DNA of 64,000 nucleotides from the NCBI GenBank assembly GCA_026770025.1, contig JAMXDE010000016.1, positions 62,001 through 126,000 on the forward strand, written 5' to 3'. This DNA comes from Craspedostauros australis (taxonomy: Eukaryota > Bacillariophyta > Bacillariophyceae > Mastogloiales > Achnanthaceae). Below, one piece after another: positions 1 through 22,818 of the stretch (position 1 is its first letter; every line of letters starts with the position of its first letter). A program made the translations under genes and the position numbers. A model generated the notes under the pieces. It saw only the letters and a program-made list of their open reading frames with translations. It ran no database searches and was not told the origin of the DNA.

Positions 1-3000
1 AGCTCGCTGCGTTGGTGATTGTGGCAGGCGCTTCGGCAAAAGGCTGTCGATCTTCTCAAGGAGGTGATTGGTGTCGTCATCAACACTGTCTGGATTACGA
101 ACCCAGTTCACGATGTCTTCGTGTTCTTGTGCCTTCGACGGTGGCTCAGCGCGTGTCGACAACGGCAACTGTGGTTGGCGCTTGAAGTCAGTGTTATCAG
201 GGTCCTCGTCAACTTCCACACGGTTGTTCCTCATCCAATCAAGCGACCCCTCGATCTGTCTTGCGCGTTCGACGGGGTTCTCCTTGCTGCGCGAAGGCAA
301 CATCTGGTCGATCTTCTTGAACTCGCCAGTGGGGTCCAACGAATCAGGCTTGCCGTTGCGAGCCCAGTTAAATGCTTTTTCTGCATCGGTTGCACGCTCT
401 TCCGGAGAGCGGCGAGACACTGGGATGGATCCGAGCTTGTCGAATGGAACATCACTCTCATCCACATCCTCAGGACGTCGGTTGCGAGACCAGTCAAGGG
501 CACTCTCGATGTCTCGAGCACGGTCCTCTGGGGTCTGACCTGGACGGGTTGGCATCAGCTGGTCGATCTTCTTGAACTCTCCAGTTGGATCCAACGAATC
601 AGGCTTGCCATTGCGCATCCAGTTCAACACGTTGTTCACATCCTCAGAGCGTTCCTCTGGGGAGCGACGAGACACTGGAATGGATCCAATCTTGCTGAAT
701 GGAACGTCGACATCGCCGTCATCGTCATCGGTTGGCTTCGTGTTGCGCATCCAGTCAAGGGCGCTTTCGATGTCACGAGCACGATCCTCTGGAGTCTGGC
801 TCTTCTTCTGTGGAAGCATCTGATCGATCTTCTTGAATTCGCCGGTTGGGTCCAACGAATCAGGCTTGCCATTGCGAGCCCAGTTCAGGACGTTGTCGAT
901 GTCCTTGGAGCGGCCCTCTGGTGAGCGCTTCGACACTGGAATCGATGCCAGCTTGTCGAAGGACGGGATCGAATCCTCATCAGGCTTCAATCCCTTGTTG
1001 CGCATCCAGTCAAGGGCGCTCTCGATGTCGCGAGCACGCTCTTCTGGAGTCTGGCTCTTTCGCTGAGGCATCATCTGGTCGATCTTCTTGAACTCACCAG
1101 TTGGGTCGTCTTCAGCATCCTTCCCGCTGCGCATCCAGTTGAGCACGTCGTCGATGTCCTGCTCTCTGTCTTCTGGGGAGCGACGAGACACTGGAATGGA
1201 TCCAAGCTTGTCGAATGGGGCAACAGAATCGTCGCTGTCGTCGGGCTTCAGCCCCTTGTTGCGCATCCAGTCGAGAGCACTCTCGATCTCCCGAGCACGA
1301 TCCTCTGGAGTCTGGCTCTTCTTCTGTGGGAGCATCTGGTCGATCTTCTTGAACTCGCCAGTTGGGTCGTCCTCATCGTTCTTGCCGTTGCGAGCCCAGT
1401 TCAGGACATCGTCGATGTCCTTGCTGCGTTCTTCTGGAGAGCGGCGAGACACTGGGATGGAGTTGAGCTGATCGAAGGAAGGCACATCATCAGTGACAGG
1501 GTTCACGTCGTGATTGCGCATCCAGTCAAGGGAGTTCTCGATGTCGCGCACACGTTCACGTGGAGTCTGACCTGGACGGGTTGGGATCATCTGGTCGATC
1601 TTCTTGAATTCACCGGTTGGATCCAACGAGTCAGGCTTGCCATTGCGCATCCAGTTCAACACGTCATCGATGTCCTTGCTGCGCTCCTCTGGGGAGCGAC
1701 GAGACACTGGAATAGATGCCAGCTTGTCGAATGGAACGTCGGCATCGCTGTCATCAGCATCGGTTGGCTTCGTGTTGCGCATCCAATCAAGGGCGCTTTC
1801 GATGTCTCGGGCACGATCCTCTGGAGTCTGGCTCTTCTTCTGTGGGAGCATCTGGTCGATCTTCTTGAACTCGCCAGTTGGGTCGTCCTCATCGTTCTTG
1901 CCATTGCGAGCCCAGTTCAGGACATCATCAATGTCCTTGCTGCGTTCTTCCGGAGAGCGGCGAGACACTGGGATGGATCCGAGCTTGTCGAATGGAACAT
2001 CACTCTCGTCCACATCCTCGGGACGTCGGTTGCGAGACCAGTCAAGGGCGCTCTCGATGTCGCGAGCACGGTCCTCTGGAGTCTGACCTGGACGGGTTGG
2101 CATCAGCTGGTCGATCTTCTTGAATTCGCCGGTTGGATCCAACGAGTCAGGCTTGCCATTGCGCATCCAGTTCAGCACGTTGTTCACATCCTCAGAGCGT
2201 TCCTCTGGGGAGCGACGAGACACTGGAATGGATCCAATCTTGCTGAATGGAACGTCGGCATCGCCGTCATCGTCATCGGTCGGCTTCGTGTTGCGCATCC
2301 AGTCAAGGGCGCTTTCGATGTCACGAGCACGATCCTCTGGAGTCTGGCTCTTCTTCTGTGGGAGCATCTGATCGATCTTCTTGAATTCGCCGGTTGGGTC
2401 CAACGAATCAGGCTTGCCGTTGCGAGCCCAGTTCAGGACATCATCAATGTCCTTGCTGCGTTCTTCCGGAGAGCGGCGAGACACTGGGATGGATCCGAGC
2501 TTGTCGAACGGAACATCACTCTCATCCACATCCTCAGGACGTCGGTTGCGCATCCAGTCAAGGGCGCTCTCGATGTCGCGAGCACGGTCCTCTGGAGTCT
2601 GACCTGGACGGGTTGGGATCAGCTGGTCGATCTTCTTGAACTCTCCAGTTGGATCCAACGAATCAGGCTTGCCATTGCGCATCCAGTTCAACACGTTGTT
2701 CACATCCTCAGAGCGTTCCTCTGGGGAGCGACGAGACACTGGAATGGATCCAATCTTGCTGAATGGAACGTCGGCATCGCCGTCATCGTCATCGGTCGGC
2801 TTCGTGTTGCGCATCCAGTCAAGGGCGCTTTCGATGTCACGAGCACGATCCTCTGGAGTCTGGCTCTTCTTCTGTGGAAGCATCTGATCGATCTTCTTGA
2901 ATTCGCCAGTTGGGTCCAACGAATCAGGCTTGCCATTGCGAGCCCAGTTCAGGACGTTGTCGATGTCCTTGGAGCGGCCTTCTGGTGAGCGCTTCGACAC

Positions 3001-6000
3001 TGGAATCGATGCCAGCTTGTCGAAGGACGGGATCGAATCCTCATCAGGCTTCAATCCCTTGTTGCGCATCCAGTCAAGGGCGCTCTCGATGTCGCGAGCA
3101 CGCTCTTCTGGAGTCTGGCTCTTTCGCTGAGGCATCATCTGGTCGATCTTCTTGAACTCACCAGTTGGGTCGTCTTCAGCATCCTTCCCGCTGCGCATCC
3201 AGTTGAGCACGTCGTCGATGTCCTGCTCTCTGTCTTCTGGGGAGCGACGAGACACTGGAATGGATCCAAGCTTGTCGAATGGGGCAACAGAATCGTCGCT
3301 GTCGTCGGGCTTCAGCCCCTTGTTGCGCATCCAGTCGAGAGCACTCTCGATCTCCCGAGCACGATCCTCTGGAGTCTGGCTCTTCTTCTGTGGGAGCATC
3401 TGGTCGATCTTCTTGAACTCGCCGGTTGGATCCAACGAATCAGGCTTGCCGTTGCGAGCCCAGTCGAGGACATCATCGATGTCCTTGCTGCGTTCTTCTG
3501 GAGAGCGGCGAGACACTGGGATGGAGTTGAGCTGATCGAAGGAAGGCACATCATCAGTGACAGGGTTCACGTCGTGATTGCGCATCCAGTCGAGGGAGTT
3601 CTCGATGTCGCGCGCACGTTCACGTGGAGTCTGACCTGGACGGGTTGGGATCATCTGGTCGATCTTCTTGAATTCACCGGTTGGATCCAACGAATCAGGC
3701 TTGCCATTGCGCATCCAGTTCAACACGTCATCGATGTCCTTGCTGCGCTCCTCTGGGGAGCGACGAGACACTGGAATAGATGCCAGCTTGTCGAATGGAA
3801 CGTCGGCATCGCCGTCATCAGCATCGGTTGGCTTCGTGTTGCGCATCCAATCAAGGGCGCTTTCGATGTCTCGGGCACGATCCTCTGGAGTCTGGCTCTT
3901 CTTCTGTGGGAGCATCTGATCGATCTTCTTGAACTCGCCAGTTGGGTCGTCCTCATCGTTCTTGCCGTTGCGAGCCCAGTTCAGGACATCATCAATGTCC
4001 TTGCTGCGTTCTTCCGGAGAGCGGCGAGACACTGGGATGGATCCGAGCTTGTCGAATGGAACATCACTCTCGTCCACATCCTCGGGACGTCGGTTGCGAG
4101 ACCAGTCAAGGGCGCTCTCGATGTCGCGAGCACGGTCCTCTGGAGTCTGACCTGGACGGGTTGGCATCAGCTGGTCGATCTTCTTGAATTCACCGGTTGG
4201 ATCCAACGAGTCAGGCTTGCCATTGCGCATCCAGTTCAGCACGTTGTTCACATCCTCAGAGCGTTCCTCTGGGGAGCGACGAGACACTGGAATGGATCCA
4301 ATCTTGCTGAATGGAACGTCGGCATCGCCGTCATCGTCATCGGTCGGCTTCGTGTTGCGCATCCAGTCAAGGGCGCTTTCGATGTCACGAGCACGATCCT
4401 CTGGAGTCTGGCTCTTCTTCTGTGGAAGCATCTGATCGATCTTCTTGAATTCGCCAGTTGGGTCCAACGAATCAGGCTTGCCGTTGCGAGCCCAGTTCAG
4501 GACGCTGTCGATGTCCTTGGAGCGGCCTTCTGGTGAGCGCTTCGACACTGGAATCGATGCCAGCTTGTCGAAGGACGGGATCGAATCCTCATCAGGCTTC
4601 AATCCCTTGTTGCGCATCCAGTCAAGGGCGCTCTCGATGTCGCGAGCACGCTCTTCTGGAGTCTGGCTCTTTCGCTGAGGCATCATCTGGTCGATCTTCT
4701 TGAACTCACCAGTTGGGTCGTCTTCTGCATCCTTCCCGCTGCGCATCCAGTTGAGCACGTCGTCGATGTCCTGCTCTCTGTCTTCTGGGGAGCGACGAGA
4801 CACTGGAATGGATCCAAGCTTGTCGAATGGGGCAACAGAATCGTCGCTGTCGTCGGGCTTCAGCCCCTTGTTGCGCATCCAGTCGAGAGCACTCTCGATC
4901 TCCCGAGCACGATCCTCCGGAGTCTGGCTCTTCTTCTGTGGGAGCATCTGGTCGATCTTCTTGAACTCGCCGGTTGGATCCAACGAATCAGGCTTGCCGT
5001 TGCGAGCCCAGTTCAGGACATCATCGATGTCCTTGCTGCGTTCTTCTGGAGAGCGGCGAGACACTGGGATGGAGTTGAGCTGATCGAAGGAAGGCACATC
5101 ATCAGTGACAGGGTTCACGTCGTGATTGCGCATCCAGTCGAGGGAGTTCTCGATGTCGCGCGCACGTTCACGTGGAGTCTGACCTGGACGGGTTGGGATC
5201 ATCTGGTCGATCTTCTTGAATTCACCGGTTGGATCCAACGAATCAGGCTTGCCATTGCGCATCCAGTTCAACACGTCATCGATGTCCTTGCTGCGCTCCT
5301 CTGGAGAGCGACGAGACACTGGAATGGATGCCAGCTTGTCGAATGGAACGTCGGCATCGCTGTCATCAGCATCGGTTGGCTTCGTGTTGCGCATCCAATC
5401 AAGGGCGCTTTCGATGTCTCGGGCACGATCCTCTGGAGTCTGGCTCTTCTTCTGTGGGAGCATCTGGTCGATCTTCTTGAACTCGCCAGTTGGGTCGTCC
5501 TCATCGTTCTTGCCATTGCGAGCCCAGTTCAGGACATCATCAATGTCCTTGGTGCGTTCTTCTGGTGAGCGGCGAGAAACTGGAATGGAGTTGAGCTGAT
5601 CGAAGGATGGGATCGAATCCTCATCAGGCTTCAATCCCTTGTTGCGCATCCAGTCAAGGGCGCTCTCGATGTCTCGAGCACGGTCCTCTGGAGTCTGACC
5701 TGGACGGGTTGGGATCAGCTGGTCGATCTTCTTGAACTCTCCAGTTGGATCCAACGAATCAGGCTTGCCATTGCGCATCCAGTTCAGCACGTCATCGATG
5801 TCCTTGCTGCGCTCCTCCGGGGAGCGACGAGACACTGGAATGGATCCAATCTTGCTGAATGGAACGTCGGCATCGCCGTCATCGTCATCGGTCGGCTTCG
5901 TGTTGCGCATCCAATCAAGGGCGCTTTCGATGTCACGAGCACGATCCTCTGGAGTCTGGCTCTTCTTCTGTGGAAGCATCTGATCGATCTTCTTGAACTC

Positions 6001-9000
6001 GCCGGTTGGGTCCAACGAATCAGGCTTGCCATTGCGAGCCCAGTTCAGGACATCATCAATGTCCTTGCTGCGTTCTTCCGGAGAGCGGCGAGACACTGGG
6101 ATGGATCCGAGCTTGTCGAATGGAACATCACTCTCATCCACATCCTCAGGACGTCGGTTGCGCATCCAGTCAAGGGCACTCTCGATGTCTCGAGCACGGT
6201 CCTCTGGAGTCTGACCTGGACGGGTTGGCATCAGCTGGTCGATCTTCTTGAATTCGCCGGTTGGATCCAACGAGTCAGGCTTGCCATTGCGCATCCAGTT
6301 CAGCACGTTGTTCACATCCTCAGAGCGTTCTTCTGGGGAGCGACGAGACACTGGAATGGATCCAATCTTGCTGAATGGAACGTCGACATCGCTGTCATCG
6401 TCATCGGTCGGCTTCGTGTTGCGCATCCAGTCAAGGGCGCTCTCGATGTCACGAGCACGATCCTCTGGAGTCTGGCTCTTCTTCTGTGGGAGCATCTGAT
6501 CGATCTTCTTGAATTCGCCAGTTGGGTCCAACGAATCAGGCTTGCCATTGCGAGCCCAGTTCAGGACGTTGTCGATGTCCTTGGAGCGGCCTTCTGGTGA
6601 GCGCTTCGACACTGGAATCGATGCCAGCTTGTCGAAGGACGGGATCGAATCCTCATCAGGCTTCAATCCCTTGTTGCGCATCCAGTCAAGGGCGCTCTCG
6701 ATGTCGCGAGCACGCTCTTCTGGAGTCTGGCTCTTTCGCTGAGGCATCATCTGGTCGATCTTCTTGAACTCACCAGTTGGGTCGTCTTCAGCATCCTTCC
6801 CGCTGCGCATCCAGTTGAGCACGTCGTCGATGTCCTGCTCTCTGTCTTCTGGGGAGCGACGAGACACTGGAATGGATCCAAGCTTGTCGAATGGGGCAAC
6901 AGAATCGTCGCTGTCGTCGGGCTTCAGCCCCTTGTTGCGCATCCAGTCGAGAGCGCTTTCGATCTCCCGAGCACGATCCTCTGGAGTCTGGCTCTTCTTC
7001 TGTGGGAGCATCTGGTCGATCTTCTTGAACTCGCCAGTTGGGTCGTCCTCATCGTTCTTGCCGTTGCGAGCCCAGTCGAGGACATCATCGATGTCCTTGC
7101 TGCGTTCTTCTGGAGAGCGGCGAGACACTGGGATGGAGTTGAGCTGATCGAAGGAAGGCACATCATCAGTGACAGGGTTCACGTCGTGATTGCGCATCCA
7201 GTCGAGGGAGTTCTCGATGTCGCGCGCACGTTCACGTGGAGTCTGACCTGGACGGGTTGGGATCATCTGGTCGATCTTCTTGAATTCACCGGTTGGATCC
7301 AACGAATCAGGCTTGCCATTGCGCATCCAGTTCAACACGTCATCGATGTCCTTGCTGCGCTCCTCTGGGGAGCGACGAGACACTGGAATAGATGCCAGCT
7401 TGTCGAATGGAACGTCGGCATCGCCGTCATCAGCATCGGTTGGCTTCGTGTTGCGCATCCAATCAAGGGCGCTTTCGATGTCTCGGGCACGATCCTCTGG
7501 AGTCTGGCTCTTCTTCTGTGGGAGCATCTGATCGATCTTCTTGAACTCGCCAGTTGGGTCGTCCTCATCGTTCTTGCCGTTGCGAGCCCAGTTCAGGACA
7601 TCATCAATGTCCTTGCTGCGTTCTTCCGGAGAGCGGCGAGACACTGGGATGGATCCGAGCTTGTCGAATGGAACATCACTCTCGTCCACATCCTCGGGAC
7701 GTCGGTTGCGAGACCAGTCAAGGGCGCTCTCGATGTCGCGAGCACGGTCCTCTGGAGTCTGACCTGGACGGGTTGGCATCAGCTGGTCGATCTTCTTGAA
7801 TTCACCGGTTGGATCCAACGAGTCAGGCTTGCCATTGCGCATCCAGTTCAGCACGTTGTTCACATCCTCAGAGCGTTCCTCTGGGGAGCGACGAGACACT
7901 GGAATGGATCCAATCTTGCTGAATGGAACGTCGGCATCGCCGTCATCGTCATCGGTCGGCTTCGTGTTGCGCATCCAGTCAAGGGCGCTCTCGATGTCAC
8001 GAGCACGATCCTCTGGAGTCTGGCTCTTCTTCTGTGGAAGCATCTGATCGATCTTCTTGAACTCGCCGGTTGGGTCCAACGAATCAGGCTTGCCGTTGCG
8101 AGCCCAGTTCAGGACATCATCAATGTCCTTGCTGCGTTCTTCCGGAGAGCGGCGAGACACTGGGATGGATCCGAGCTTGTCGAACGGAACATCACTCTCA
8201 TCCACATCCTCAGGACGTCGGTTGCGCATCCAGTCAAGGGCGCTCTCGATGTCGCGAGCACGGTCCTCTGGAGTCTGACCTGGACGGGTTGGGATCAGCT
8301 GGTCGATCTTCTTGAACTCTCCAGTTGGATCCAACGAATCAGGCTTGCCATTGCGCATCCAGTTCAGCACGTTGTTCACATCCTCAGAGCGTTCCTCTGG
8401 GGAGCGACGAGACACTGGAATGGATCCAATCTTGCTGAATGGAACGTCGGCATCGCCGTCATCGTCATCGGTCGGCTTCGTGTTGCGCATCCAGTCAAGG
8501 GCGCTTTCGATGTCACGAGCACGATCCTCTGGAGTCTGGCTCTTCTTCTGTGGAAGCATCTGATCGATCTTCTTGAATTCGCCAGTTGGGTCCAACGAAT
8601 CAGGCTTGCCGTTGCGAGCCCAGTTCAGGACGCTGTCGATGTCCTTGGAGCGGCCTTCTGGTGAGCGCTTCGACACTGGAATCGATGCCAGCTTGTCGAA
8701 GGACGGGATCGAATCCTCATCAGGCTTCAATCCCTTGTTGCGCATCCAGTCAAGGGCGCTCTCGATGTCGCGAGCACGCTCTTCTGGAGTCTGGCTCTTT
8801 CGCTGAGGCATCATCTGGTCGATCTTCTTGAACTCACCAGTTGGGTCGTCTTCTGCATCCTTCCCGCTGCGCATCCAGTTGAGCACGTCGTCGATGTCCT
8901 GCTCTCTGTCTTCTGGGGAGCGACGAGACACTGGAATGGATCCAAGCTTGTCGAATGGGGCAACAGAATCGTCGCTGTCGTCGGGCTTCAGCCCCTTGTT

Positions 9001-15000: not shown

Positions 15001-18000
15001 GATGTCACGAGCGCGATCTTCGGCAGACTGGCCACGCTTGATTGGCATCATGGCATCCAGCTTGCGGAACTCGCCAGTTGGGTCCAGAAGATCGTCGTTC
15101 TTGCCCTTGTTGCGCATCCAGTTCAGGGCATCTTCCATGTCCTGGGCACGTTGCTCAGGGGTGCGACGTGGTGCTGGGGCGGAACCCAACTTGTAGAAGT
15201 CTGGAATGGCATCGACATCATCGGCACCCACACCCTTGCTTCGCATCCAGTCAAGAGCACCCTCGATGTCACGGGCACGATCTTCAGCAGACTGGCCACG
15301 CTTGATTGGCATCATGGCATCCAGCTTGCGGAACTCGCCGGTCGGGTCCAGAAGATCGTCGTTCTTGCCCTTGTTGCGCATCCAGTTCAGAGCATCTTCC
15401 ATGTCCTGTGCACGTTGCTCAGGGGTGCGACGGGACATTGGCACGGAGCCAATGGCATCAAAGCCTGGAATGGCATCGACATCATCGGCACCCATACCCT
15501 TGCTTCGCATCCAGTCAAGAGCACCCTCGATGTCACGGGCACGATCTTCGGCAGACTGGCCACGCTTGACGGGCATCATGGCATCCAGCTTGCGGAACTC
15601 GCCAGTTGGATCCAAGAGGTCGTCATTCTTGCCCTTGTTGCGCATCCAGTTGAGCGCGTCTTCCATGTCCTGGGCACGTTGCTCAGGGGTGCGATGGGAC
15701 ATTGGCACGGAGCCAATGGCATCAAAGCCTGGGATGGCATCGACATCATCGGCACCCATACCCTTGCTTCGCATCCAGTCAAGAGCACCCTCGATGTCAC
15801 GAGCGCGATCTTCGGCAGACTGGCCACGCTTGATTGGCATCATGGCATCCAGCTTGCGGAACTCGCCAGTTGGGTCCAGAAGATCGTCGTTCTTGCCCTT
15901 GTTGCGCATCCAGTTCAGGGCATCTTCCATGTCCTGGGCACGTTGCTCAGGGGTGCGACGTGGTGCTGGGGCGGAACCCAACTTGTAGAAGTCTGGAATG
16001 GCATCGACATCATCGGCACCCACACCCTTGCTTCGCATCCAGTCAAGAGCACCCTCGATGTCACGAGCGCGATCTTCAGCAGACTGGCCACGCTTGATTG
16101 GCATCATGGCATCCAGCTTGCGGAACTCGCCAGTCGGATCCAAGAGGTCATCGTTCTTGCCCTTGTTGCGCATCCAGTTCAGGGCATCTTCCATGTCCTG
16201 GGCACGTTGTTCAGGGGTGCGACGGGACACTGGCACGGAGCCGATGGCATCAAAGCCTGGAATGGCATCGACATCATCGGCACCCATACCCTTGCTTCGC
16301 ATCCAGTCAAGAGCACCCTCGATGTCACGAGCGCGATCTTCAGCAGACTGGCCACGCTTGATTGGCATCATGGCATCCAGCTTGCGGAACTCGCCAGTTG
16401 GATCCAAGAGGTCATCGTTCTTGCCCTTGTTGCGCATCCAGTTGAGCGCGTCTTCCATGTCCTGGGCACGTTGTTCAGGGGTGCGACGGGACATCGGGAC
16501 GGAGCCAATAGCATCAAAGCCTGGGATGGAGGCGTCACTGTCGGCGATAATGCCCTTGCTTCTCATCCACGACAAGACATTTGCCATATCCTCTGCGGTC
16601 TGCTCTGGTGATTCGTGTCCTTGTGTTGGGAGAGATGCGTGGATCTTTCGGAATGCTCCTGTCGGATCACACTCATCATCGTTGGTCCCCTCATTGCGCA
16701 ACCAGTTCATGATATTCGCAATATCCGAGGATCTCTGTTTTGAGTCTTGGTCCAGAAATTCCATGGACTGCAGTTCTTCCAAAGAAGGGATTGCGTGATC
16801 ACTGTCAGGGATCAAGCCCTGGGACCTCATCCAGTTCATAGAGTTGAGGATATCGCTTGCTCTGTCTTCGTCGCTTTGGCCAGGCTTGTTTGGCAACGAA
16901 GCATCGATCTTGGCAAACAACCCAGCGTGGTCAAAGTCTGGTCCTGCGACCTCTTTGTCGCTTCTGATCCAGTTGAGGATATCATCGTATGTGCTCTCGT
17001 CGTATGCTGGTGAGCGATTCGTCGCAGAAAAATCAGTGTTCTTACCGAAGACGTCATCCTCGTCGTCGTCATCGAATCCTGGGGCCAGACCGCGGTTGCG
17101 CATCCACGACAGGCCGTCCAGAATCTGATTTGCGCGTTCGGTTTCACTCTGCCCGCTCTTCGCGGGCAAAGCGGCATCGAGCTGGGCGAACATGCCGGTT
17201 GGATCCAGCGAGTCGTTCTTGTCACCTCTCAACCAATTGAGAATATTCTGAAGGTCCTGATTGTTTCCAACGCCACCTGCCGCAGCGGCAGCTGTTCCGA
17301 ATGGCATCGTGACCATCGCGTCGCTTTCGATGGTACCAAAGTCATCGAGGTCAACACCATTCTCGCGCAACCAGTTCAACGCATTTTCCATGCCCTTGGC
17401 TCTGTCCTCGGCATCTTCGCCTTCCTTCTTGGGAAGCATGAGATCGAGTTTAGAGAAAACGTCGGCAAAGTCGAGGACATTGTCGTTGCTTTCGCCTCTG
17501 AGCCAGTCGAGGGCCGCGTCAGTGTCGGACGATCTCTGCTCAGCTGTGCGGTACTCGATGGGTGCATCGCCCGACTTGGGGAAGAATGTGATTCCGTCCT
17601 CCGGATCCTCATCAACAAGGCCTTGGGAACGCAGCCAGTTGAGCGCGCCCTCCATATCTGCGGCCCTTTCATCGAACGATTCATAATCCCCTGGTGGGAT
17701 CAAATCTTCAAGTGCGGCGAAGGGCGAGATCGGATCGTTATCGGTTCCACCCTCACGAAGGAAGTCGAGAATGTTGTCGAGGTCTTCTTTTCTGGCCTCG
17801 GCAGATCTCGCCTTGATTGGCATCGAAGATGAGAGCAGGTCGAAGGTGGGGACGAATTCGTTGTCGTCAACATCCAGTCCCTGAGATCTGAGCCAGCTGA
17901 GAGCGTTTTCCATCTCCTTGGCTCTGTCTTCATCGGATTGACCGCTCTTCTTTGGTAGAAGCGCGTCGATCCTGTTGAACTTGGAGTCGTCGTCGTCGTC

Positions 18001-21000
18001 ATCGTCGTCAGCGCCACCCTTACCTCTCAACCATGCCAGTGCGCCTTCGAGGTCATCTGCTCTCGAGCCGGCAAGGTCGCCTTCGATCTTGCCAAACTCA
18101 TCGAATTGGATATCAGAAGTGATGTCGTCACCCACATCCGTGCCATTCTTGCGCAACCAGTTGAGCGCGTTGGACATGGCCTCTGCGTCTCGTTCCTCCT
18201 TCGATTTGACGCCAAAGCCAGGCATCATCGAGAATGGATCGTCGGTGTCGTCCAAGGACTCGGCATCATGGTTGCGGAGCCAGTCAAGGGCGTTGGCCAT
18301 TTCCTTGTTCCTCTCGTCGGGGCTGCGTCCGAGTGCATCGATGGTGCCAAACTTCTCATCCAAGCCAGAAAAGTCTGGAGACTCCTGATCGAAGTCTGCG
18401 CCGTTCTTGCGAAGCCAGGCCAAAGCTCTCTCCATCTCCTTGGCCTTTCGCTGTTCTGCAGTACTCATGCCGGAGAGGCCGAGTTCAGGCGAGTCGTCTT
18501 CGTCGATGTCGTTCAGTGAAGCTGGTTGTTCGTTCTTGCGCAGCCATCCGAGCGCGCTCTCGAAGTCGGAGTCCTTGCCCAGACCTCCTGGGATGGACAT
18601 GCTGTCCAAAGACTCGAAGCCTGCGAGGGATGGGTCGGCATCGGCATTGTCTCCCACCGAGGCATTGTTCTGACGGAGCCAATCCAAGGATCGGGCCATT
18701 TCGTTGGCGCGCTTCTGTTCTGCGGTTTCGGGGAGAACCGGTACGAACGATGAAAGGTCGTCAGCCTTGGTGGATTGATCATCAATGCCTGGCACGGACG
18801 ACTGTTGGCGCGAGCGCATCCAGTCAAGTGCGGAGGCGAGGTCGCTGTTGGTTTCCCCCGTCGGGATCCCTCCTGCGATCTTCTTGAAGCTCGCGACCGA
18901 CATGGCAACCGACATTTCGTCGTCCATGTCAAGTTCGGCGTCATTGGTTCTCAACCAATCAAGCGCGTTCGCCATCTCTGCGGCACGCTTCTCCTCCTCC
19001 GTCATCGCACCAAACGCTCTGGATGCCATCGGCGTGGCGGGACCTGCAGAAGCTTCGTCGTCATCGTCCGCTCCGCGCTTGCGGAGCCAGTCGAGGGCGC
19101 TGCCGAGATCACTTGAACCTCCGGCGGCGCCACGTCCACCGGCCTTGCTGAGCACGGAGTCGATCTTCTTGAAACTTGCGACAGTCTCATCGTCGACGTC
19201 GGTTTTGGTCCGGAGCCAGTTGAGGGCGTTGTCTAGACTGGGGGGACCATCGTTGTCGGCAGACTTCGGCATGAGAGAGTCGATCTTCTTGAAAGTGGCG
19301 ACGGAGAATGCGACCGACATGTCGTCGTCCATGTCGAGCTCTGCGTCGTTGTTCTTCAGCCAATCCAACGCGCTCGACATCTCCTGGGCACGCTTCTCTT
19401 CTTCGGTCAGTGGCCCGGACGGTTTCTTCACGGTCTCCTTCGGCTTCGGAGCTGGTTGGTTCTCGGAGTTGTACCAGGTGAACGTGTCGTTCAGCTGCTT
19501 GGCCATGTCCAGATCCATTGCAAGGTGGTTGTTGCGGAGCCAGTCGATCTGTCCGTCCTCGGACATGCCGCGTCTGATGTCCGCCCAGAGCTTGGCGAGT
19601 GCGTCGATCTTCTTGAGCTTCTCCTTGTCGGATTTGCCCATGCCAGCATCGTCCATGGTGAACTTCTTCTTTCTCCACCACGAAAGCGCCTCCTCGATTT
19701 CCTTGATGGTCTTCTTGTCCTTGCCCTTCTTACCACCCCACGCCTGGAGGATCTTGCGGAGCTTGCTGGCCTCGGGCTCGTCGGAATCGTCGAGGTGGAA
19801 TCCCTTGCTCTTGTTGCGGAACCAATCGAACACGGTGGTGATCTCGTCGGCGATCGTCTCCAAGTCTTCGGGGCTTGTGTCCGTCTTCTGCCAGAAGTGG
19901 GCAAGCTGTTGGGCTTTGACGTATTTGTCGGCATCCTCCATCGCCTTGTCGATCTTGATGTTCTTGCCGTTTCTCTTCCACCAGCCCATGGCATCATCGA
20001 GCTCCTTCGCGGTTCTCTTCGCCTCCTTGGCAGAGAGATGCTTGAACTCGTGCTCGGCAAGACCGAGGTCGCTGTGCCATTCGGAGACGGCATCGAAGAG
20101 GTGCTTTTGACGTGTCATGGCAGGAACGGCGTCGAGACGCATCTCAACATCGTCGTAGTCCTTGCCCTTGTTCTTCCACCAGTTCATGGCGTTGATCATG
20201 TCCTTCACAGTCTTCTCGGACTGCTCTGAATCGAAGTTGTTTGCATTCATGCGGCACCATTCCATCATGCAGTCCTTGAGGCGCATCAATTCCTGGCGCT
20301 GGGCTGGTGTGATGTCCATGCTTGCAAAGTCGAAGTGTTGCCCGTTTGCGCGCCAAAGATCGATTGCGGAGACAAGCTCCTTGGTGAGGGCCTTGGAACG
20401 CTTCCAAGTGAAGTCCTGGCCGATCTCACGAGGCTTCCAGATGTCCAACAGTCCCTTGATGTTGTTCACGTTGACGATGTCGAAAGGCGAGGCCGTTTCG
20501 ATGTCGAACTTGTCGCCGTTCTTGCGCCACCAGGACAGGGAGCCCAGGATGTCATCCGCGACATCGTCAGCGGCGTCTTCGTCGAGACTTTCGGCTGCGG
20601 TCAAGCGCCAATCGATCATGGCCTGTTGAAGTCGGCGGAACTTCTCGCCTTCCTCGCCCTCCATCTCAAACACGGCAGTGTCGTACTTGTTGCGGCGGAA
20701 CATGATGAGGGAATCCGCGATGTCCTTCAAGTTCTTGGAGGTGCAGTTTGCTTTGTATCCCCAAACGGACATGAGGCCCTGAGCCTTCTTGAACTTGGCA
20801 ACCTCTTGCGGGCTGGCCGCGTCAAGGTTGAGCTTGTATCCAGTGCTCCTGTACCACTGCATGACCTCCGTCATCTCCTCTCCCATCATCTTGACCGCAC
20901 GAGGGTCCAACTCGTCGCGGCGAAGCTGGATGAGGGCGTGCTTCACCTTCTTCAAGGCTTCGGCCTGGAGCGGGTCAAGGTCTCCCACCGGGGTGTCCTT

Positions 21001-22818
21001 GTACTTGGCCCACATGGAAAGTGCGCTCTTGATCTCCTTCATGCGCTGATCCAGAGGATCGCCGTGCTTGAACCCGAAGTGTGCCAAGAGGCTCTGCGCC
21101 TTGCGGAACATCTCCTCCTCCTCCGCCGTGGCGGCCATGGGGTCGTAGGTTTCGGCGTTCGCGCGCCACCAGGAGACGGCATCCTGGATATCGCGAGCGC
21201 TGTTGTCTTCGTTCAAACGCCAGTCCACGAAGAGGTCCTGCACACGCTGCATGGGGTCGGACTTGTAGAACGGATCGTTCAGGTCCAAATCACCGGACAT
21301 GAACAGCCCGAGAGAGCCGAGTATGTCCTTCGAGAGCTGCTGGGCTCGTTTAACGTCGTCAGACGGATCGAAGCTCTCCCAGTTCTGCTGGGGCAAGTCG
21401 ACGAGGTCCCACGACCCGAAGAGTTGATTGACCTTCTTGAACTTGGCCTGTTCCTGTTCAAATTCCTTCATGTCCTCGACGTGCTCGTCTCCTCTCTTCT
21501 CCCACCAGGTGAGCGAGTCGCGGATCTCGCGTGCCTTGCGCTCAGCCTCGTTGCCGATCTTGTCCCACTTGCTCATGGCGTTGCTGACCTTGATGGCCTT
21601 CTTCACCGTGGGGTCGTAGTCCTCGGACGACGGCGGAACGTAGTCCTGGTTCATGGAGCACCACTCGACGATCTTCTTCATGCCTTCGATGCCACCGAAG
21701 TCCTTACCGAGACTTGCCGCGAGGTCATCGGCGTCGTCAGCGGCGTCGTCGACGGTGTGGTTCCACCAATCCACGGCATTGCGCATCTTCTTGGTGCGCT
21801 TCTCCACTTCGGCGGTTGGGAGGTCCGCCTTTCCGGTCTTGGAGGCCTTCCCGCCTCCGCCTTCGGGACCAGGTAAAGCCGAACGCAGCTCTCGCTCTTT
21901 CGCGTTCTCCTCCTGCTTGGCCTTGAGCATGCTCATGAGGTCAGGCATCTCCTCGGTCTTGAACTCCGTCTGGTTGGAGAAGATGGACATGCCATCGTCC
22001 ACCGTGGACGTGTCATCTATCTCCCACCAGTTGTCACTGCCGGAGGTCTTGGCCTTCTTGGCGGCCCCTCCTGCCTCCTTCGGCTTGCTGGCCCCTCCAG
22101 ATCCTCCAGGATCGGTACCGGCACCGTCACCTGCACCGTCTTCCTCCGCGGCTTCTGGCCTGGTGAGCCATGCCATCGCGCTCGCCATCTCCATGGCACG
22201 TTGCGTGGCCTCGTCCGCGTTGGACTTCGCCTTGACAGTCGAAGATCCCTGACCGGGGTACTTCGCGGACATGGATGTTCCGACCGAGCGGTCGTCATCG
22301 AAAGCCGATTGCTTGGGACCAGCCCCCAACATGCGAGTCAAGCTCGCCATGAGGGAAGGTCCTTGGGGTGCCTCCTCCGGGCGCGGCGGCGGCGATTCGG
22401 GGTGTTGAATCAGCGCCGGCGGCGGCCCGATTGGCACGTCCACAGGCTCCGGAGCCGGTGGCTGCGGCGGTGCGGGCTGATGGCGACCCGCCACTCGCAC
22501 AGGCGAAGACACCGCAGCCGCAGGTCTGGACCCACGCTGCGCGCCCGGTCCAGGGGCCTGTCCCTGCTTCGGCTTGCGAAGCTCGGGTGGGATCTCCATC
22601 CCAGGCCCGAAGATCGGCGCCGGACGTCTTGGTCGGAACAGCTCCGGCGGCGGATCGGGTGCCCTGAAGGTTGCGCGGCGGTTAGGCGGCACATAGGGCA
22701 TGCGGGTGGTCACCACAGGCACGCGGCGACGTTCGCGGTCACGGCGTTGCTGCTCGATGCGCTCGGCAGCCTGCCTTTCCTCCTCTTCCTCCTCGGGTCC
22801 AAGTGTCCACCAAGCCAT
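1..22818 (-). CDS. Giant tandem-repeat protein, partial (C-terminus outside window)
   Basis: The minus-strand frame is open from the ATG at 22818 down to base 1, giving at least 7,606 residues with no stop or intron needed. I translated the first ~560 bases, 12.0-12.8 kb and the last ~380 bases codon by codon and read the rest by pattern. The N-terminus (MAWWTLGPEEEEEE) is not a signal peptide, so the protein is probably intracellular. About 190 Pro/Arg-rich residues come first. Then come units of about 40-45 residues, each with a tryptophan core: WWK/WWR up to about residue 1100, then ALDWLR, then ALDWMR or VLNWMR. Units are joined by acidic linkers and by a DPTGEFKKID...PK segment. Most units contain an (S/T)PE(E/Q)R or EDRA(R/K)DIE helix. 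I do not recognise the family. A cytoskeletal or scaffold role is only a guess. The right flank is a 2.8 kb divergent promoter region shared with a kinesin gene. Confidence 0.9.
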   Translation of the reverse strand, partial: MAWWTLGPEEEEEERQAAERIEQQRRDRERRRVPVVTTRMPYVPPNRRATFRAPDPPPELFRPRRPAPIFGPGMEIPPELRKPKQGQAPGPGAQRGSRPAAAVSSPVRVAGRHQPAPPQPPAPEPVDVPIGPPPALIQHPESPPPRPEEAPQGPSLMASLTRMLGAGPKQSAFDDDRSVGTSMSAKYPGQGSSTVKAKSNADEATQRAMEMASAMAWLTRPEAAEEDGAGDGAGTDPGGSGGASKPKEAGGAAKKAKTSGSDNWWEIDDTSTVDDGMSIFSNQTEFKTEEMPDLMSMLKAKQEENAKERELRSALPGPEGGGGKASKTGKADLPTAEVEKRTKKMRNAVDWWNHTVDDAADDADDLAASLGKDFGGIEGMKKIVEWCSMNQDYVPPSSEDYDPTVKKAIKVSNAMSKWDKIGNEAERKAREIRDSLTWWEKRGDEHVEDMKEFEQEQAKFKKVNQLFGSWDLVDLPQQNWESFDPSDDVKRAQQLSKDILGSLGLFMSGDLDLNDPFYKSDPMQRVQDLFVDWRLNEDNSARDIQDAVSWWRANAETYDPMAATAEEEEMFRKAQSLLAHFGFKHGDPLDQRMKEIKSALSMWAKYKDTPVGDLDPLQAEALKKVKHALIQLRRDELDPRAVKMMGEEMTEVMQWYRSTGYKLNLDAASPQEVAKFKKAQGLMSVWGYKANCTSKNLKDIADSLIMFRRNKYDTAVFEMEGEEGEKFRRLQQAMIDWRLTAAESLDEDAADDVADDILGSLSWWRKNGDKFDIETASPFDIVNVNNIKGLLDIWKPREIGQDFTWKRSKALTKELVSAIDLWRANGQHFDFASMDITPAQRQELMRLKDCMMEWCRMNANNFDSEQSEKTVKDMINAMNWWKNKGKDYDDVEMRLDAVPAMTRQKHLFDAVSEWHSDLGLAEHEFKHLSAKEAKRTAKELDDAMGWWKRNGKNIKIDKAMEDADKYVKAQQLAHFWQKTDTSPEDLETIADEITTVFDWFRNKSKGFHLDDSDEPEASKLRKILQAWGGKKGKDKKTIKEIEEALSWWRKKKFTMDDAGMGKSDKEKLKKIDALAKLWADIRRGMSEDGQIDWLRNNHLAMDLDMAKQLNDTFTWYNSENQPAPKPKETVKKPSGPLTEEEKRAQEMSSALDWLKNNDAELDMDDDMSVAFSVATFKKIDSLMPKSADNDGPPSLDNALNWLRTKTDVDDETVASFKKIDSVLSKAGGRGAAGGSSDLGSALDWLRKRGADDDDEASAGPATPMASRAFGAMTEEEKRAAEMANALDWLRTNDAELDMDDEMSVAMSVASFKKIAGGIPTGETNSDLASALDWMRSRQQSSVPGIDDQSTKADDLSSFVPVLPETAEQKRANEMARSLDWLRQNNASVGDNADADPSLAGFESLDSMSIPGGLGKDSDFESALGWLRKNEQPASLNDIDEDDSPELGLSGMSTAEQRKAKEMERALAWLRKNGADFDQESPDFSGLDEKFGTIDALGRSPDERNKEMANALDWLRNHDAESLDDTDDPFSMMPGFGVKSKEERDAEAMSNALNWLRKNGTDVGDDITSDIQFDEFGKIEGDLAGSRADDLEGALAWLRGKGGADDDDDDDDSKFNRIDALLPKKSGQSDEDRAKEMENALSWLRSQGLDVDDNEFVPTFDLLSSSMPIKARSAEARKEDLDNILDFLREGGTDNDPISPFAALEDLIPPGDYESFDERAADMEGALNWLRSQGLVDEDPEDGITFFPKSGDAPIEYRTAEQRSSDTDAALDWLRGESNDNVLDFADVFSKLDLMLPKKEGEDAEDRAKGMENALNWLRENGVDLDDFGTIESDAMVTMPFGTAAAAAGGVGNNQDLQNILNWLRGDKNDSLDPTGMFAQLDAALPAKSGQSETERANQILDGLSWMRNRGLAPGFDDDDEDDVFGKNTDFSATNRSPAYDESTYDDILNWIRSDKEVAGPDFDHAGLFAKIDASLPNKPGQSDEDRASDILNSMNWMRSQGLIPDSDHAIPSLEELQSMEFLDQDSKQRSSDIANIMNWLRNEGTNDDECDPTGAFRKIHASLPTQGHESPEQTAEDMANVLSWMRSKGIIADSDASIPGFDAIGSVPMSRRTPEQRAQDMEDALNWMRNKGKNDDLLDPTGEFRKLDAMMPIKRGQSAEDRARDIEGALDWMRSKGMGADDVDAIPGFDAIGSVPVSRRTPEQRAQDMEDALNWMRNKGKNDDLLDPTGEFRKLDAMMPIKRGQSAEDRARDIEGALDWMRSKGVGADDVDAIPDFYKLGSAPAPRRTPEQRAQDMEDALNWMRNKGKNDDLLDPTGEFRKLDAMMPIKRGQSAEDRARDIEGALDWMRSKGMGADDVDAIPGFDAIGSVPMSHRTPEQRAQDMEDALNWMRNKGKNDDLLDPTGEFRKLDAMMPVKRGQSAEDRARDIEGALDWMRSKGMGADDVDAIPGFDAIGSVPMSRRTPEQRAQDMEDALNWMRNKGKNDDLLDPTGEFRKLDAMMPIKRGQSAEDRARDIEGALDWMRSKGVGADDVDAIPDFYKLGSAPAPRRTPEQRAQDMEDALNWMRNKGKNDDLLDPTGEFRKLDAMMPIKRGQSAEDRARDIESALDWMRSKGMGADDVDAIPGFDAIGSVPMSRRTPEQRSKDMEDALNWMRNKGKNDDLLDPTGEFRKLDAMMPIKRGQSAEDRARDIEGALDWMRSKGVGADDVDAIPDFYKLGSAPAPRRTPEQRAQDMEDALNWMRNKGKNDDLLDPTGEFRKLDAMMPIKRGQSAEDRARDIEGALDWMRSKGMGADDVDAIPGFDAIGSVPMSRRTPEQRAQDMEDALNWMRNKGKNDDLLDPTGEFRKLDAMMPIKRGQSAEDRARDIESALDWMRSKGVGPDDVDAIPGFDAIGSVPMSRRTPEQRSKDMEDALNWMRNKGKNDDLLDPTGEFRKLDAMMPIKRGQSAEDRARDIEGAMDWLRNESVGADGVDAILDFEKLGAVPAPRRTPEQRAQDMEDALNWMRNKGKNDDLLDPTGEFRKLDAMMPIKRGQSPEDRARDIEGALDWLRNNDLAPDDNDTESVLDKLGMIPSSIRTPEQRAQDTEDALNWMRNKGKDDDLFDPTGEFRKLDSVLPKKRGESPEDRARSIEGALDWLRQAQNLGAENEPCGVAFKPLGTFPSSARSPEERAGTEAQILDWLRNQKSASLDPVGEFKKVDQLMSRPKKQSKKKRAKQLEGAIDWIRNNGFRTPDEDVDSFEKKGSINMPRRTPEQRTDDLDKIFSWIRGGKSDSDDPTGEFNKVDQIIPHKRSQSSSDRAQAIEGALDWLRNRGLQPTDDFVDEFNRAAGFVPATKNSPEDRFNEASKIAEWIRNGKPANMDPGGTMKLIDAAMPRKSRQSPDDRAKDIEAAMDWMRNQGVQPSATAKNKPFKTIKSLPVTLRTPEDRLNDKNQILTWLRNGKPTNDDASEEFRKIDQQLPFKPKQSLDDRANDIERALDWIRNTGAPLDVAASQSDLPAPSSHIPGSKRSPEERGMDVDDILNWLRNKGKNDDDLDPTGEFRMIDQVLPQKKSQTPEDRAREIESALDWMRNQPSNVDQDETDPSFQAHSMLPISRRSPEERTKDIDDVLNWMRSGKDDGEDPTGEFKKIDQMIPTRPGQSPRERARDIESALDWMRNQDVNPVTDDVPSFDQLNSIPVSKRSPEERSKDIERMLNWMRNGKNDEDDPTGEFKKIDQMLPQKKSQTPEDRARDIESALDWMRNKGLKPDDSDDSVAPFDKLGSIPVSRRSPEERANDIDDVLNWMRSGKDTEDDPTGEFKKIDQMMPTRPGQTPEDRARDIESALDWMRNKGLKPDEDSIPSFDQLNSIPVSRRSPEERTKDIDDVLNWARNGKNDEDDPTGEFKKIDQMLPQKKSQTPEDRARDIESALDWMRNTKPTDADDSDADVPFDKLASIPVSRRSPEERSKDIDDVLNWMRNGKPDSLDPTGEFKKIDQMIPTRPGQTPRERARDIENSLDWMRNHDVNPVTDDVPSFDQLNSIPVSRRSPEERSKDIDDVLDWARNGKNDEDDPTGEFKKIDQMLPQKKSQTPEDRAREIESALDWMRNKGLKPDDSDDSVAPFDKLGSIPVSRRSPEDREQDIDDVLNWMRSGKDAEDDPTGEFKKIDQMMPQRKSQTPEERARDIESALDWMRNKGLKPDEDSIPSFDKLASIPVSKRSPEGRSKDIDSVLNWARNGKPDSLDPTGEFKKIDQMLPQKKSQTPEDRARDIESALDWMRNTKPTDDDDGDADVPFSKIGSIPVSRRSPEERSEDVNNVLNWMRNGKPDSLDPTGEFKKIDQLIPTRPGQTPEDRARDIESALDWMRNRRPEDVDESDVPFDKLGSIPVSRRSPEERSKDIDDVLNWARNGKNDEDDPTGEFKKIDQMLPQKKSQTPEDRARDIESALDWMRNTKPTDADDSDADVPFDKLASIPVSRRSPEERSKDIDDVLNWMRNGKPDSLDPTGEFKKIDQMIPTRPGQTPRERARDIENSLDWMRNHDVNPVTDDVPSFDQLNSIPVSRRSPEERSKDIDDVLDWARNGKNDEDDPTGEFKKIDQMLPQKKSQTPEDRAREIESALDWMRNKGLKPDDSDDSVAPFDKLGSIPVSRRSPEDREQDIDDVLNWMRSGKDAEDDPTGEFKKIDQMMPQRKSQTPEERARDIESALDWMRNKGLKPDEDSIPSFDKLASIPVSKRSPEGRSKDIDSVLNWARNGKPDSLDPTGEFKKIDQMLPQKKSQTPEDRARDIESALDWMRNTKPTDDDDGDADVPFSKIGSIPVSRRSPEERSEDVNNVLNWMRNGKPDSLDPTGEFKKIDQLIPTRPGQTPEDRARDIESALDWMRNRRPEDVDESDVPFDKLGSIPVSRRSPEERSKDIDDVLNWARNGKPDSLDPTGEFKKIDQMLPQKKSQTPEDRARDIESALDWMRNTKPTDDDDGDADVPFSKIGSIPVSRRSPEERSEDVNNVLNWMRNGKPDSLDPTGEFKKIDQLMPTRPGQTPEDRARDIESALDWSRNRRPEDVDESDVPFDKLGSIPVSRRSPEERSKDIDDVLNWARNGKNDEDDPTGEFKKIDQMLPQKKSQTPEDRARDIESALDWMRNTKPTDADDGDADVPFDKLASIPVSRRSPEERSKDIDDVLNWMRNGKPDSLDPTGEFKKIDQMIPTRPGQTPRERARDIENSLDWMRNHDVNPVTDDVPSFDQLNSIPVSRRSPEERSKDIDDVLDWARNGKNDEDDPTGEFKKIDQMLPQKKSQTPEDRAREIESALDWMRNKGLKPDDSDDSVAPFDKLGSIPVSRRSPEDREQDIDDVLNWMRSGKDAEDDPTGEFKKIDQMMPQRKSQTPEERARDIESALDWMRNKGLKPDEDSIPSFDKLASIPVSKRSPEGRSKDIDNVLNWARNGKPDSLDPTGEFKKIDQMLPQKKSQTPEDRARDIESALDWMRNTKPTDDDDSDVDVPFSKIGSIPVSRRSPEERSEDVNNVLNWMRNGKPDSLDPTGEFKKIDQLMPTRPGQTPEDRARDIESALDWMRNRRPEDVDESDVPFDKLGSIPVSRRSPEERSKDIDDVLNWARNGKPDSLDPTGEFKKIDQMLPQKKSQTPEDRARDIESALDWMRNTKPTDDDDGDADVPFSKIGSIPVSRRSPEERSKDIDDVLNWMRNGKPDSLDPTGEFKKIDQLIPTRPGQTPEDRARDIESALDWMRNKGLKPDEDSIPSFDQLNSIPVSRRSPEERTKDIDDVLNWARNGKNDEDDPTGEFKKIDQMLPQKKSQTPEDRARDIESALDWMRNTKPTDADDSDADVPFDKLASIPVSRRSPEERSKDIDDVLNWMRNGKPDSLDPTGEFKKIDQMIPTRPGQTPRERARDIENSLDWMRNHDVNPVTDDVPSFDQLNSIPVSRRSPEERSKDIDDVLNWARNGKPDSLDPTGEFKKIDQMLPQKKSQTPEDRAREIESALDWMRNKGLKPDDSDDSVAPFDKLGSIPVSRRSPEDREQDIDDVLNWMRSGKDAEDDPTGEFKKIDQMMPQRKSQTPEERARDIESALDWMRNKGLKPDEDSIPSFDKLASIPVSKRSPEGRSKDIDSVLNWARNGKPDSLDPTGEFKKIDQMLPQKKSQTPEDRARDIESALDWMRNTKPTDDDDGDADVPFSKIGSIPVSRRSPEERSEDVNNVLNWMRNGKPDSLDPTGEFKKIDQLMPTRPGQTPEDRARDIESALDWSRNRRPEDVDESDVPFDKLGSIPVSRRSPEERSKDIDDVLNWARNGKNDEDDPTGEFKKIDQMLPQKKSQTPEDRARDIESALDWMRNTKPTDADDGDADVPFDKLASIPVSRRSPEERSKDIDDVLNWMRNGKPDSLDPTGEFKKIDQMIPTRPGQTPRERARDIENSLDWMRNHDVNPVTDDVPSFDQLNSIPVSRRSPEERSKDIDDVLDWARNGKPDSLDPTGEFKKIDQMLPQKKSQTPEDRAREIESALDWMRNKGLKPDDSDDSVAPFDKLGSIPVSRRSPEDREQDIDDVLNWMRSGKDAEDDPTGEFKKIDQMMPQRKSQTPEERARDIESALDWMRNKGLKPDEDSIPSFDKLASIPVSKRSPEGRSKDIDNVLNWARNGKPDSLDPTGEFKKIDQMLPQKKSQTPEDRARDIESALDWMRNTKPTDDDDGDADVPFSKIGSIPVSRRSPEERSEDVNNVLNWMRNGKPDSLDPTGEFKKIDQLIPTRPGQTPEDRARDIESALDWMRNRRPEDVDESDVPFDKLGSIPVSRRSPEERSKDIDDVLNWARNGKPDSLDPTGEFKKIDQMLPQKKSQTPEDRARDIESALDWMRNTKPTDDDDGDADVPFSKIGSIPVSRRSPEERSEDVNNVLNWMRNGKPDSLDPTGEFKKIDQLMPTRPGQTPEDRARDIESALDWSRNRRPEDVDESDVPFDKLGSIPVSRRSPEERSKDIDDVLNWARNGKNDEDDPTGEFKKIDQMLPQKKSQTPEDRARDIESALDWMRNTKPTDADDSDADVPFDKLASIPVSRRSPEERSKDIDDVLNWMRNGKPDSLDPTGEFKKIDQMIPTRPGQTPRERVRDIENSLDWMRNHDVNPVTDDVPSFDQLNSIPVSRRSPEERSKDIDDVLNWARNGKNDEDDPTGEFKKIDQMLPQKKSQTPEDRAREIESALDWMRNKGLKPDDSDDSVAPFDKLGSIPVSRRSPEDREQDIDDVLNWMRSGKDAEDDPTGEFKKIDQMMPQRKSQTPEERARDIESALDWMRNKGLKPDEDSIPSFDKLASIPVSKRSPEGRSKDIDNVLNWARNGKPDSLDPTGEFKKIDQMLPQKKSQTPEDRARDIESALDWMRNTKPTDDDDGDVDVPFSKIGSIPVSRRSPEERSEDVNNVLNWMRNGKPDSLDPTGEFKKIDQLMPTRPGQTPEDRARDIESALDWSRNRRPEDVDESDVPFDKLGSIPVSRRSPEERATDAEKAFNWARNGKPDSLDPTGEFKKIDQMLPSRSKENPVERARQIEGSLDWMRNNRVEVDEDPDNTDFKRQPQLPLSTRAEPPSKAQEHEDIVNWVRNPDSVDDDTNHLLEKIDSLLPKRLPQSPTQRA
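244..12200 (-). repeat. 258-bp coding tandem array with higher-order periods
   Basis: The basic period is 258 bp (86 residues, two related 43-residue half-units), always a multiple of three so the frame is kept. A marker half-unit (plus-strand text beginning gggttcacgtcgtgattgcg) recurs just before positions 1510, 3574, 5122, 7186, 9250 and 10798, with a diverged copy near 11830. The spacings are 2064, 1548, 2064, 2064, 1548 and 1032 bp, which are 8, 6, 8, 8, 6 and 4 units. A second marker (the half-unit at 833, 2897, 4445, 6509, 8573 and 10121) gives the same series. Long blocks differ at only a few bases between copies. The leftmost ~240 bases of the window are much more diverged. Confidence 0.93.
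13460..16540 (-). repeat. 264-bp coding tandem array (about 11 units)
   Basis: The plus-strand text catcatggcatccagcttgc recurs every 264 bp from about 13727 to 16367, eleven times. The 264 bp unit encodes 88 residues in the giant protein: an EGALDWMRSKG half and an EDALNWMRNKGKNDDLLDPT half. Two variants of the first linker occur, one reading IPGFDAIGSVP and one reading IPDFYKLGSAP. The second variant appears near 14661, 15189 and 15981. This array is separated from the 258-bp array by about 1.3 kb of diverged units (12.2-13.4 kb). Confidence 0.9.
16540..21790 (-). repeat. Diverged N-terminal repeat units of the giant protein
   Basis: The protein repeat continues here but DNA identity between units is largely lost. 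From about 16.5 to 19.4 kb the units read ALDWLR, ALNWLR or ILNWLR followed by acidic linkers with FxKIDSLxP. From about 19.5 to 21.8 kb the core changes to WW(R/K), MWAK, LWRA or WYRS (for example AMNWWKNKGKDY, AIDLWRANGQHF, SLSWWRKNGDKF), with spacing of about 55-80 residues. The boundaries are approximate. Confidence 0.75.

Follow-up and report, generated by a model that had tools for sequence, protein, structure and literature searches.

The 64,000-nucleotide window analysed here corresponds to C14:62001-126000 of the Craspedostauros australis genome (74.8 Mb, 90 contigs) and contains the first part of a giant gene on the minus strand. The frame opens with an ATG at window position 22818 and runs for 11,544 codons without an internal stop as far as its stop codon at C14:50184. 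Codons 1-7606 are within the window, where the frame is open from 22818 to 1, and the gene extends 11.8 kb beyond the window edge to its stop. A separate ORF search around the gene put the open frame at 11,558 codons. The encoded protein of 11,544 aa has a calculated mass of 1,301 kDa (1.30 MDa) and a pI of 4.52. An earlier note on this DNA had described a single frame of more than 22.8 kb and more than 7,600 residues, which agrees with the 7,606 open codons in the window and the full length given above. In line with its statement on this point, hydropathy gives no evident signal peptide, the best 10-residue value near the N-terminus being 0.41. The likening in size to titin was overstated, as the protein has about 11.5 thousand residues and titin is about three times as long.

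Head to head with the giant gene is a kinesin gene (PF00225; window 26187-31142, plus strand). The ORF as listed begins 3.4 kb from the giant gene; since its motor domain is incomplete at the front, the true start of the kinesin gene is probably closer. Tandem repeats with open frames of HPQQLEQPSTPTEAV-type units were identified on the minus strand at C14:22001-25000 and are probably a satellite.

Between its N-terminus and an LRR domain the giant protein is built of about 240 units in tandem, mostly 42-45 aa long (window coordinates below are on the minus strand). Residues 1-340 (21799-22818) are Pro-rich (13.8%), hydrophilic and, from composition and hydropathy, probably disordered. Residues 341-1140 (19399-21798) hold about 15 longer, divergent, W-rich helical units with WW or W-x-R helices, supported by the unit list, AF2 models and hhalign (starts were chosen by eye and are 36-67 aa apart). 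These units are the most degenerate relatives of the main W-R repeat, R1. The R1 zone spans aa ~1141-7780 overall, with units of the form xLxW-x-R and 152 spacings between them. Its early units (aa 1141-2076; 16591-19398), as seen in the unit list, are divergent and acidic, with an xALxWLR core. At aa 2077-3138 (13405-16590) the units are paired in 88 residues (264 bp); TRF reports a period of 264 at 13412-16529 (11.8 copies), and a lag scan of aa 2075-3000 also shows the 88-residue pairs. From aa 3700 to the window edge at aa 7606 (1-11721), spacing, TRF and lag scan identify four-unit super-repeats of 172 residues (43-44-43-42). Beyond the window are the R2 zone (aa ~7780-10960), with proline-rich units and 72 spacings, a hydrophobic segment recognised by hydropathy (aa ~11147-11171) and the C-terminal LRR domain (aa 11172-11544), recognised by Pfam and its PDB relatives.

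In the window part we counted 99 instances of the strict core [AV]LxW[MLW][RK]; 200 residue shuffles gave 0.035 on average and never more than 1. With two looser definitions of the core the counts are 130 and 153, so the earlier count of more than 100 units stands for the looser cores and fails for the strictest one. The unit length of about 43 residues given at the same time is matched by a mean R1 core spacing of 43.7; 151 of the 152 spacings fall within 40-50 residues, and the lone exception is an 86-residue double unit. R2 spacings average 45 residues (71 of 72 within 40-50). Among units with spacings in this range, 80 of 151 R1 sequences and 21 of 71 R2 sequences are distinct. R2 is apparently a proline-rich derivative of R1 that retains W-x-R and F..[PL]..[LV].SIP.R, and units at the junction of the two zones (aa ~7790-7940) are mixed, with an R1-like start and an R2-like end, which argues for one continuous protein. 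Comparison by hhalign linked the N-terminal units (aa 341-1140) to R1 (94%) and late R1 to R2 (65.5%). Early R1 and the N-terminal units gave 1.6% and 0.1%, respectively, against R2, which is linked to these weakly or not at all. The highest probability among 20 column-shuffled controls per pair was 1.7%.

The register in the later part of R1 is strict: at aa ~3,600-7,600 there are 22 perfect 43-44-43-42 cycles of 172 residues each, extending over 3,784 residues. Larger R1 duplications are superimposed on this, with 86-93% DNA identity and lags of 1548, 2064, 3612 and 5676 bp. By comparison, R2 at aa 7960-9960 consists of 90-residue pairs that are 99.6% identical in DNA at a lag of 270 bp. Growth by tandem duplication was thus old in R1 and recent in R2. 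Exact DNA repeats of 1,094 bp are present in R1 and of 2,426 bp in R2. The number of units in the R2 array, where copies are nearly identical, depends on the assembly and may be an assembly choice.

We compared equal-length units in pairs of at least 70% DNA identity, omitting identical pairs and classes with fewer than four distinct sequences. Values of dN/dS were 0.06-0.44 across all seven length classes compared. Six classes have synonymous differences (pS) of 0.27-0.41 and non-synonymous differences of 0.03-0.15. The seventh (45-residue R2 units, 5 distinct of 45) has a pS of 0.09, a pN of 0.01 and a dN/dS of 0.12. Unit pairs are not mutually independent, and the sign is the same in seven of seven classes. 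The repeat units evolve under purifying selection, and the agreement in sign across the classes is strong evidence that the giant frame is translated and that the sequence of the unit matters.

These data bear on the possibility that the repeats are a largely neutral, satellite-like expansion, kept in frame within a functional TM-LRR gene, with a length that has no role. Recent growth is certainly evident, given the near identity of the R2 pairs and the long exact repeats in both zones. However, synonymous sites differ far more than non-synonymous ones in six of the seven classes, and the frame is stop-free across 34.6 kb, whereas in the window part alone stops number 163 and 397 in the other two frames on the same strand (all five remaining frames have 26, 81, 163, 185 and 397 stops, with a longest open run of 1,007 codons). 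We consider a neutral origin of the length improbable.

AF2 models of several consecutive units, a check that the earlier note had proposed, indicate that the units are helical. The model of four R1 units (aa 2115-2290; mean pLDDT 70.6, pTM 0.46) predicts one long helix per unit (e.g., 45-61) and one short helix (29-36, the EFRKLDAM region), and that of three N-terminal units predicts six helices (pLDDT 70.8, pTM 0.34). The alignments consisted of the protein's own repeats only, the confidence is middling, and the packing of units is not settled by the models. The four-unit block alignment used 21 of 134 distinct blocks (alignments from overlapping blocks were discarded as misaligned) and the three-unit block alignment used 11 non-overlapping blocks in one register (aa 376-1983). 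An N-cap-like motif, [ST]PE.R, is found at the start of the long helix, with 106 occurrences in the giant protein.

The repeat has no coherent match to a named family, in line with the earlier note. Pfam (scan of 11,543 of the 11,544 residues) yielded no family with a self-standing stretch above the cut-off in the repeats. Six families (PF24899 UBA_DHX29, PF09242, PF16225, PF13041 PPR_2, PF07797 and PF01553) exceeded it only as sums over repeats; their best single stretches cover 11-48 residues and none passes alone. For PF24899, sums over many repeats reached 27-94 bits (cut-off 27) in three of the six pieces scanned, with a best single stretch that covers 11-22 of 55 positions (20 of 55 for the 94-bit score) and does not pass. 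In the R1 model each unit shows two main helices, as compared with three in a complete UBA domain (PF24899, PF22562). A distant UBA-like origin of the W-R unit is a weak lead, and we do not assign the unit to the UBA domains. NCBIfam gave only matches far below the cut-off in the five pieces searched (all but aa 2301-6806). Matches to PDB sequences were sought with three pieces of the repeat part: aa 1-2272 and aa 3607-7606 gave none at E 1, and the best for aa 7607-10939 were four FKBP chains at E about 0.3 (0.31) over 21 residues. None of the 43 Foldseek matches of the R1 model to the PDB reached E 0.001.

Spectrin repeats have three helices and about 106 aa; no Pfam match to them was identified, the unit spacing here is 43-45 aa and the R1 model has no PDB fold match at E 0.001. 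Also lacking by Pfam, over the same 11,543 residues, are the Ig and FN3 domains of the titin class. Searches for relatives of the W-R repeat confirmed none of 1 and none of 94 pattern stretches in viral contigs, and none of 34 in prokaryote genomes.

The part of the gene beyond the window changes the picture of the protein. The segment at aa ~11147-11171 is the sole stretch in the giant protein that exceeds a KD hydropathy of 1.6 (1.82; the next best is 0.93). It is Ala/Gly-rich, its hydropathy is modest and it lacks the basic cluster of the paralogues described below, with one R shortly before it where the paralogues have clear basic residues (KRR, RRR). The LRR domain that follows is supported by Pfam (LRR_1 at 5.1e-21, LRR_8 and LRR_4), and its PDB relatives are plant LRR ectodomains (GSO1, FLS2 and others). 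A kinase domain was not identified by Pfam in 11,543 of the 11,544 residues. Most probably the protein spans the membrane once, in type II orientation, and carries a very large acidic tail in the cytoplasm; this topology, with the tail inside and the LRR domain outside or in a vesicle lumen, is suggested by the family relationship of the LRR end, which is well supported. Cysteines number 10 in the 372 residues after the membrane segment, 4 in the 800-residue N-terminal helical part, 2 in 6,640 R1 residues and 0 in 3,220 R2 residues, a distribution that is broadly as expected for a chain that crosses a reducing/oxidising boundary. The earlier note had envisaged an intracellular giant of a new structural or cytoskeletal type. 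The hydrophobic segment and the LRR domain do not support this, and we rejected a soluble cytoskeletal giant on account of this end of the protein. We also set aside a pyrenoid-linker type protein, as no plastid-targeting N-terminus is evident and the TM-LRR end is present.

The LRR end has many relatives in the same genome, with at least 165 matching pieces (pieces rather than genes) at E 0.001 or better when 104 of 448 candidates were scored. The closest among the matches listed is a neighbour on the same strand (C14:37981-39864; E 2.8e-73, 47% over 281 residues), which encodes a short acidic tail, KRR, a TM segment and an LRR domain, and has G[VI]PCA in the TM segment in common with the giant. 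Four further TM-LRR genes are clustered at C4:2269769-2302570, each a single frame of 1402-2323 codons, with a disordered-looking tail, basic residues before the TM segment (four of four), mostly a P/S/T stalk, and LRR. Their tails are long, of low complexity and mutually unlike (SGSG/ETSG, SSKS and other types). None contains the W-R repeat (WxR/K counts of 0, 1, 1 and 1). Across the five paralogues examined, tails range from fewer than 100 to about 1,700 residues and have other sequences than that of the giant. Expansions of LRR genes are known in diatoms, as in Seminavis (PMC7335047), and the MRP2 and MRM2 proteins of Pseudo-nitzschia are TM-LRR proteins without a recognizable kinase that were proposed to be pheromone receptors or adhesion molecules (PMC6261938). 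Thus the TM-LRR end is of a known diatom kind. In the literature searched, as far as its text was available, we recognised no description of the W-R repeat or of the giant protein, and the giant W-R tail was found described nowhere in it.

Given these relatives, the protein could be a diatom TM-LRR receptor at the cell surface, for mating or for microbe or wall sensing, with a tail swollen by tandem duplication that serves as a disordered spacer or signalling platform and docks on no filament. The numerous LRR-end matches, the long and mutually unlike low-complexity tails of the C4 genes, and MRP2 and MRM2 are all consistent with this. We nevertheless regard it as unlikely, although with a real chance of being correct, because purifying selection on the units and a strict 172-residue register over 3,784 residues exceed what a passive spacer needs, and because the W-R unit recurs in a protein of different layout.

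That protein is encoded at C2:2067664-2075598 (a frame of 2,645 codons), the one further place in the genome where the W-R repeat was found. It has four IQ motifs (PF00612, 4.4e-18), about a dozen acidic repeats of the GPIEWVVDDD type in its middle and four R1-like units at its C-terminal end; an LRR was not identified by Pfam. In hhalign comparisons its units matched R1 at 98.6% and 98.2%, and the N-terminal units at 63% over 20 columns (the C2 profile has five rows, one of which, c239, is a mis-cut unit). The IQ motifs hint, and only hint, at a calcium- or myosin-related setting. R2 has no confident match elsewhere in the genome, with one at E 0.155. In the tail of the neighbouring kinesin, xxQTD/xxQTE repeats are numerous and four EWM/EWK motifs look similar to the W-R unit. 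The EWMxxxKxMG repeats of this tail were rejected as relatives, with hhalign probabilities below 1% in five of five comparisons.

We favour, at about even confidence, the interpretation that the giant protein is a multivalent, membrane-anchored scaffold or tether of the diatom, nebulin-like in its layout and not by homology. That the units form a multivalent docking array is suggested by their number, regularity and conservation. The LRR domain would face the cell exterior or the lumen of a vesicle, holding wall material, matrix or a partner ligand, and the 11,100-residue tail would be in the cytosol. Each R1 unit is predicted to form two helices, an amphipathic one with an N-cap ([ST]PE.R...ALxWxR) and a short second one (F-x-K-[IL]-D-x-x-x-P), and may dock one site of a partner that is itself repeated or filamentous, by analogy with nebulin repeats on actin, with the 172-residue super-repeat setting the register. 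The R2 zone, which is proline-rich, acidic and adjoins the membrane, could be an extensible spacer. In this way a very large number of weak contacts would link an outside or lumenal anchor to an extended assembly in the cytoplasm.

Binding of the units to actin, microtubules or a myosin-associated partner, if it occurs, would make the protein a candidate for the membrane-spanning connection in diatom gliding. Gliding models postulate such a connection, and in the available portions of two papers that set them out no protein is named for it (PMC11420354, PMC11962607). In the most specific form of this idea, the giant would supply the transmembrane linker that is missing from a force-transmission complex in diatoms: its external LRR domain would hold adhesive or wall material, the W-R repeats would wind along submembrane filaments as a nebulin anchored in the membrane might, with the IQ/W-R protein as a calcium- or myosin-related partner, and the units would constitute a new class of filament-binding repeat. 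Taken as a whole, this reading is very unlikely.

The genome has 88 matches to the silicon transporter family (PF03842), 28 of which are nearly full length and stop-free by our own count, on contigs C2, C9, C11, C24, C37, C61 and others. Silicon transporter genes are present in single-digit numbers in model diatoms. This looks like a large expansion, although assembly haplotypes could inflate the count. The rbcL gene on contig C90 is likewise that of a diatom: it matches five Rubisco large chains in the PDB at 1049-1072 bits, with the next at 926. The top four (1072, 1071, 1071 and 1066 bits) are Rubiscos of Phaeodactylum and centric diatoms, and these scores do not separate raphid, gliding species from others.

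Binding to actin, microtubules or a myosin-associated partner would alternatively make the protein a candidate for the proposed link between the cytoskeleton and the silica deposition vesicle, in which the LRR domain would be in the lumen, the tail on the cytoskeleton, and the protein would help to shape the wall. Transmembrane interactions of this type have been proposed, with the SAP family put forward (PMC5647440), and silicon transporter matches are numerous in this diatom genome. However, SAPs have an ER signal peptide and a Ser-rich N-terminal part that is predicted to be inside the vesicle (PMC5647440), unlike the giant, with its hydrophilic N-terminus and no evident signal peptide, and no feature identified here ties the giant gene to silica. 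We rate a silica-vesicle role as distinctly unlikely.

The scaffold or tether that we favour can be placed among known systems as follows. As in other diatom TM-LRR proteins, there is one TM segment, an LRR domain and no Pfam kinase, and the many relatives are partly clustered; unlike in those proteins, the cytoplasmic tail consists of about 11,100 residues of tandem repeat. The IQ motif protein shares units of the R1 kind with the giant but adds the IQ motifs and EWVVDDD repeats and has no LRR match by Pfam. The LRR domain is of the ectodomain type of plant LRR receptor-like kinases (PDB matches to GSO1 and FLS2). Those receptors are ordered as signal peptide, LRR, TM and kinase, whereas the giant is ordered as tail, TM and LRR, without a kinase or an evident signal peptide. 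Nebulin, of about 6,669 aa, contains 179-239 simple repeats that are 35-40 residues long and form super-repeats of seven, and every simple repeat is regarded as a site that binds actin (PMC7109182). The giant resembles it in size and in having about 240 units, most of 42-45 aa, in super-repeats of four. It differs in that SDxxYK and WLKGIGW each occur 0 times in 11,544 aa, there is no nebulin match by Pfam and the chain is putatively membrane-anchored. The giant protein unites two things rarely seen in one molecule, namely a membrane protein with LRRs like those of plants and some 240 helical units strung together in nebulin fashion with a strict super-repeat.
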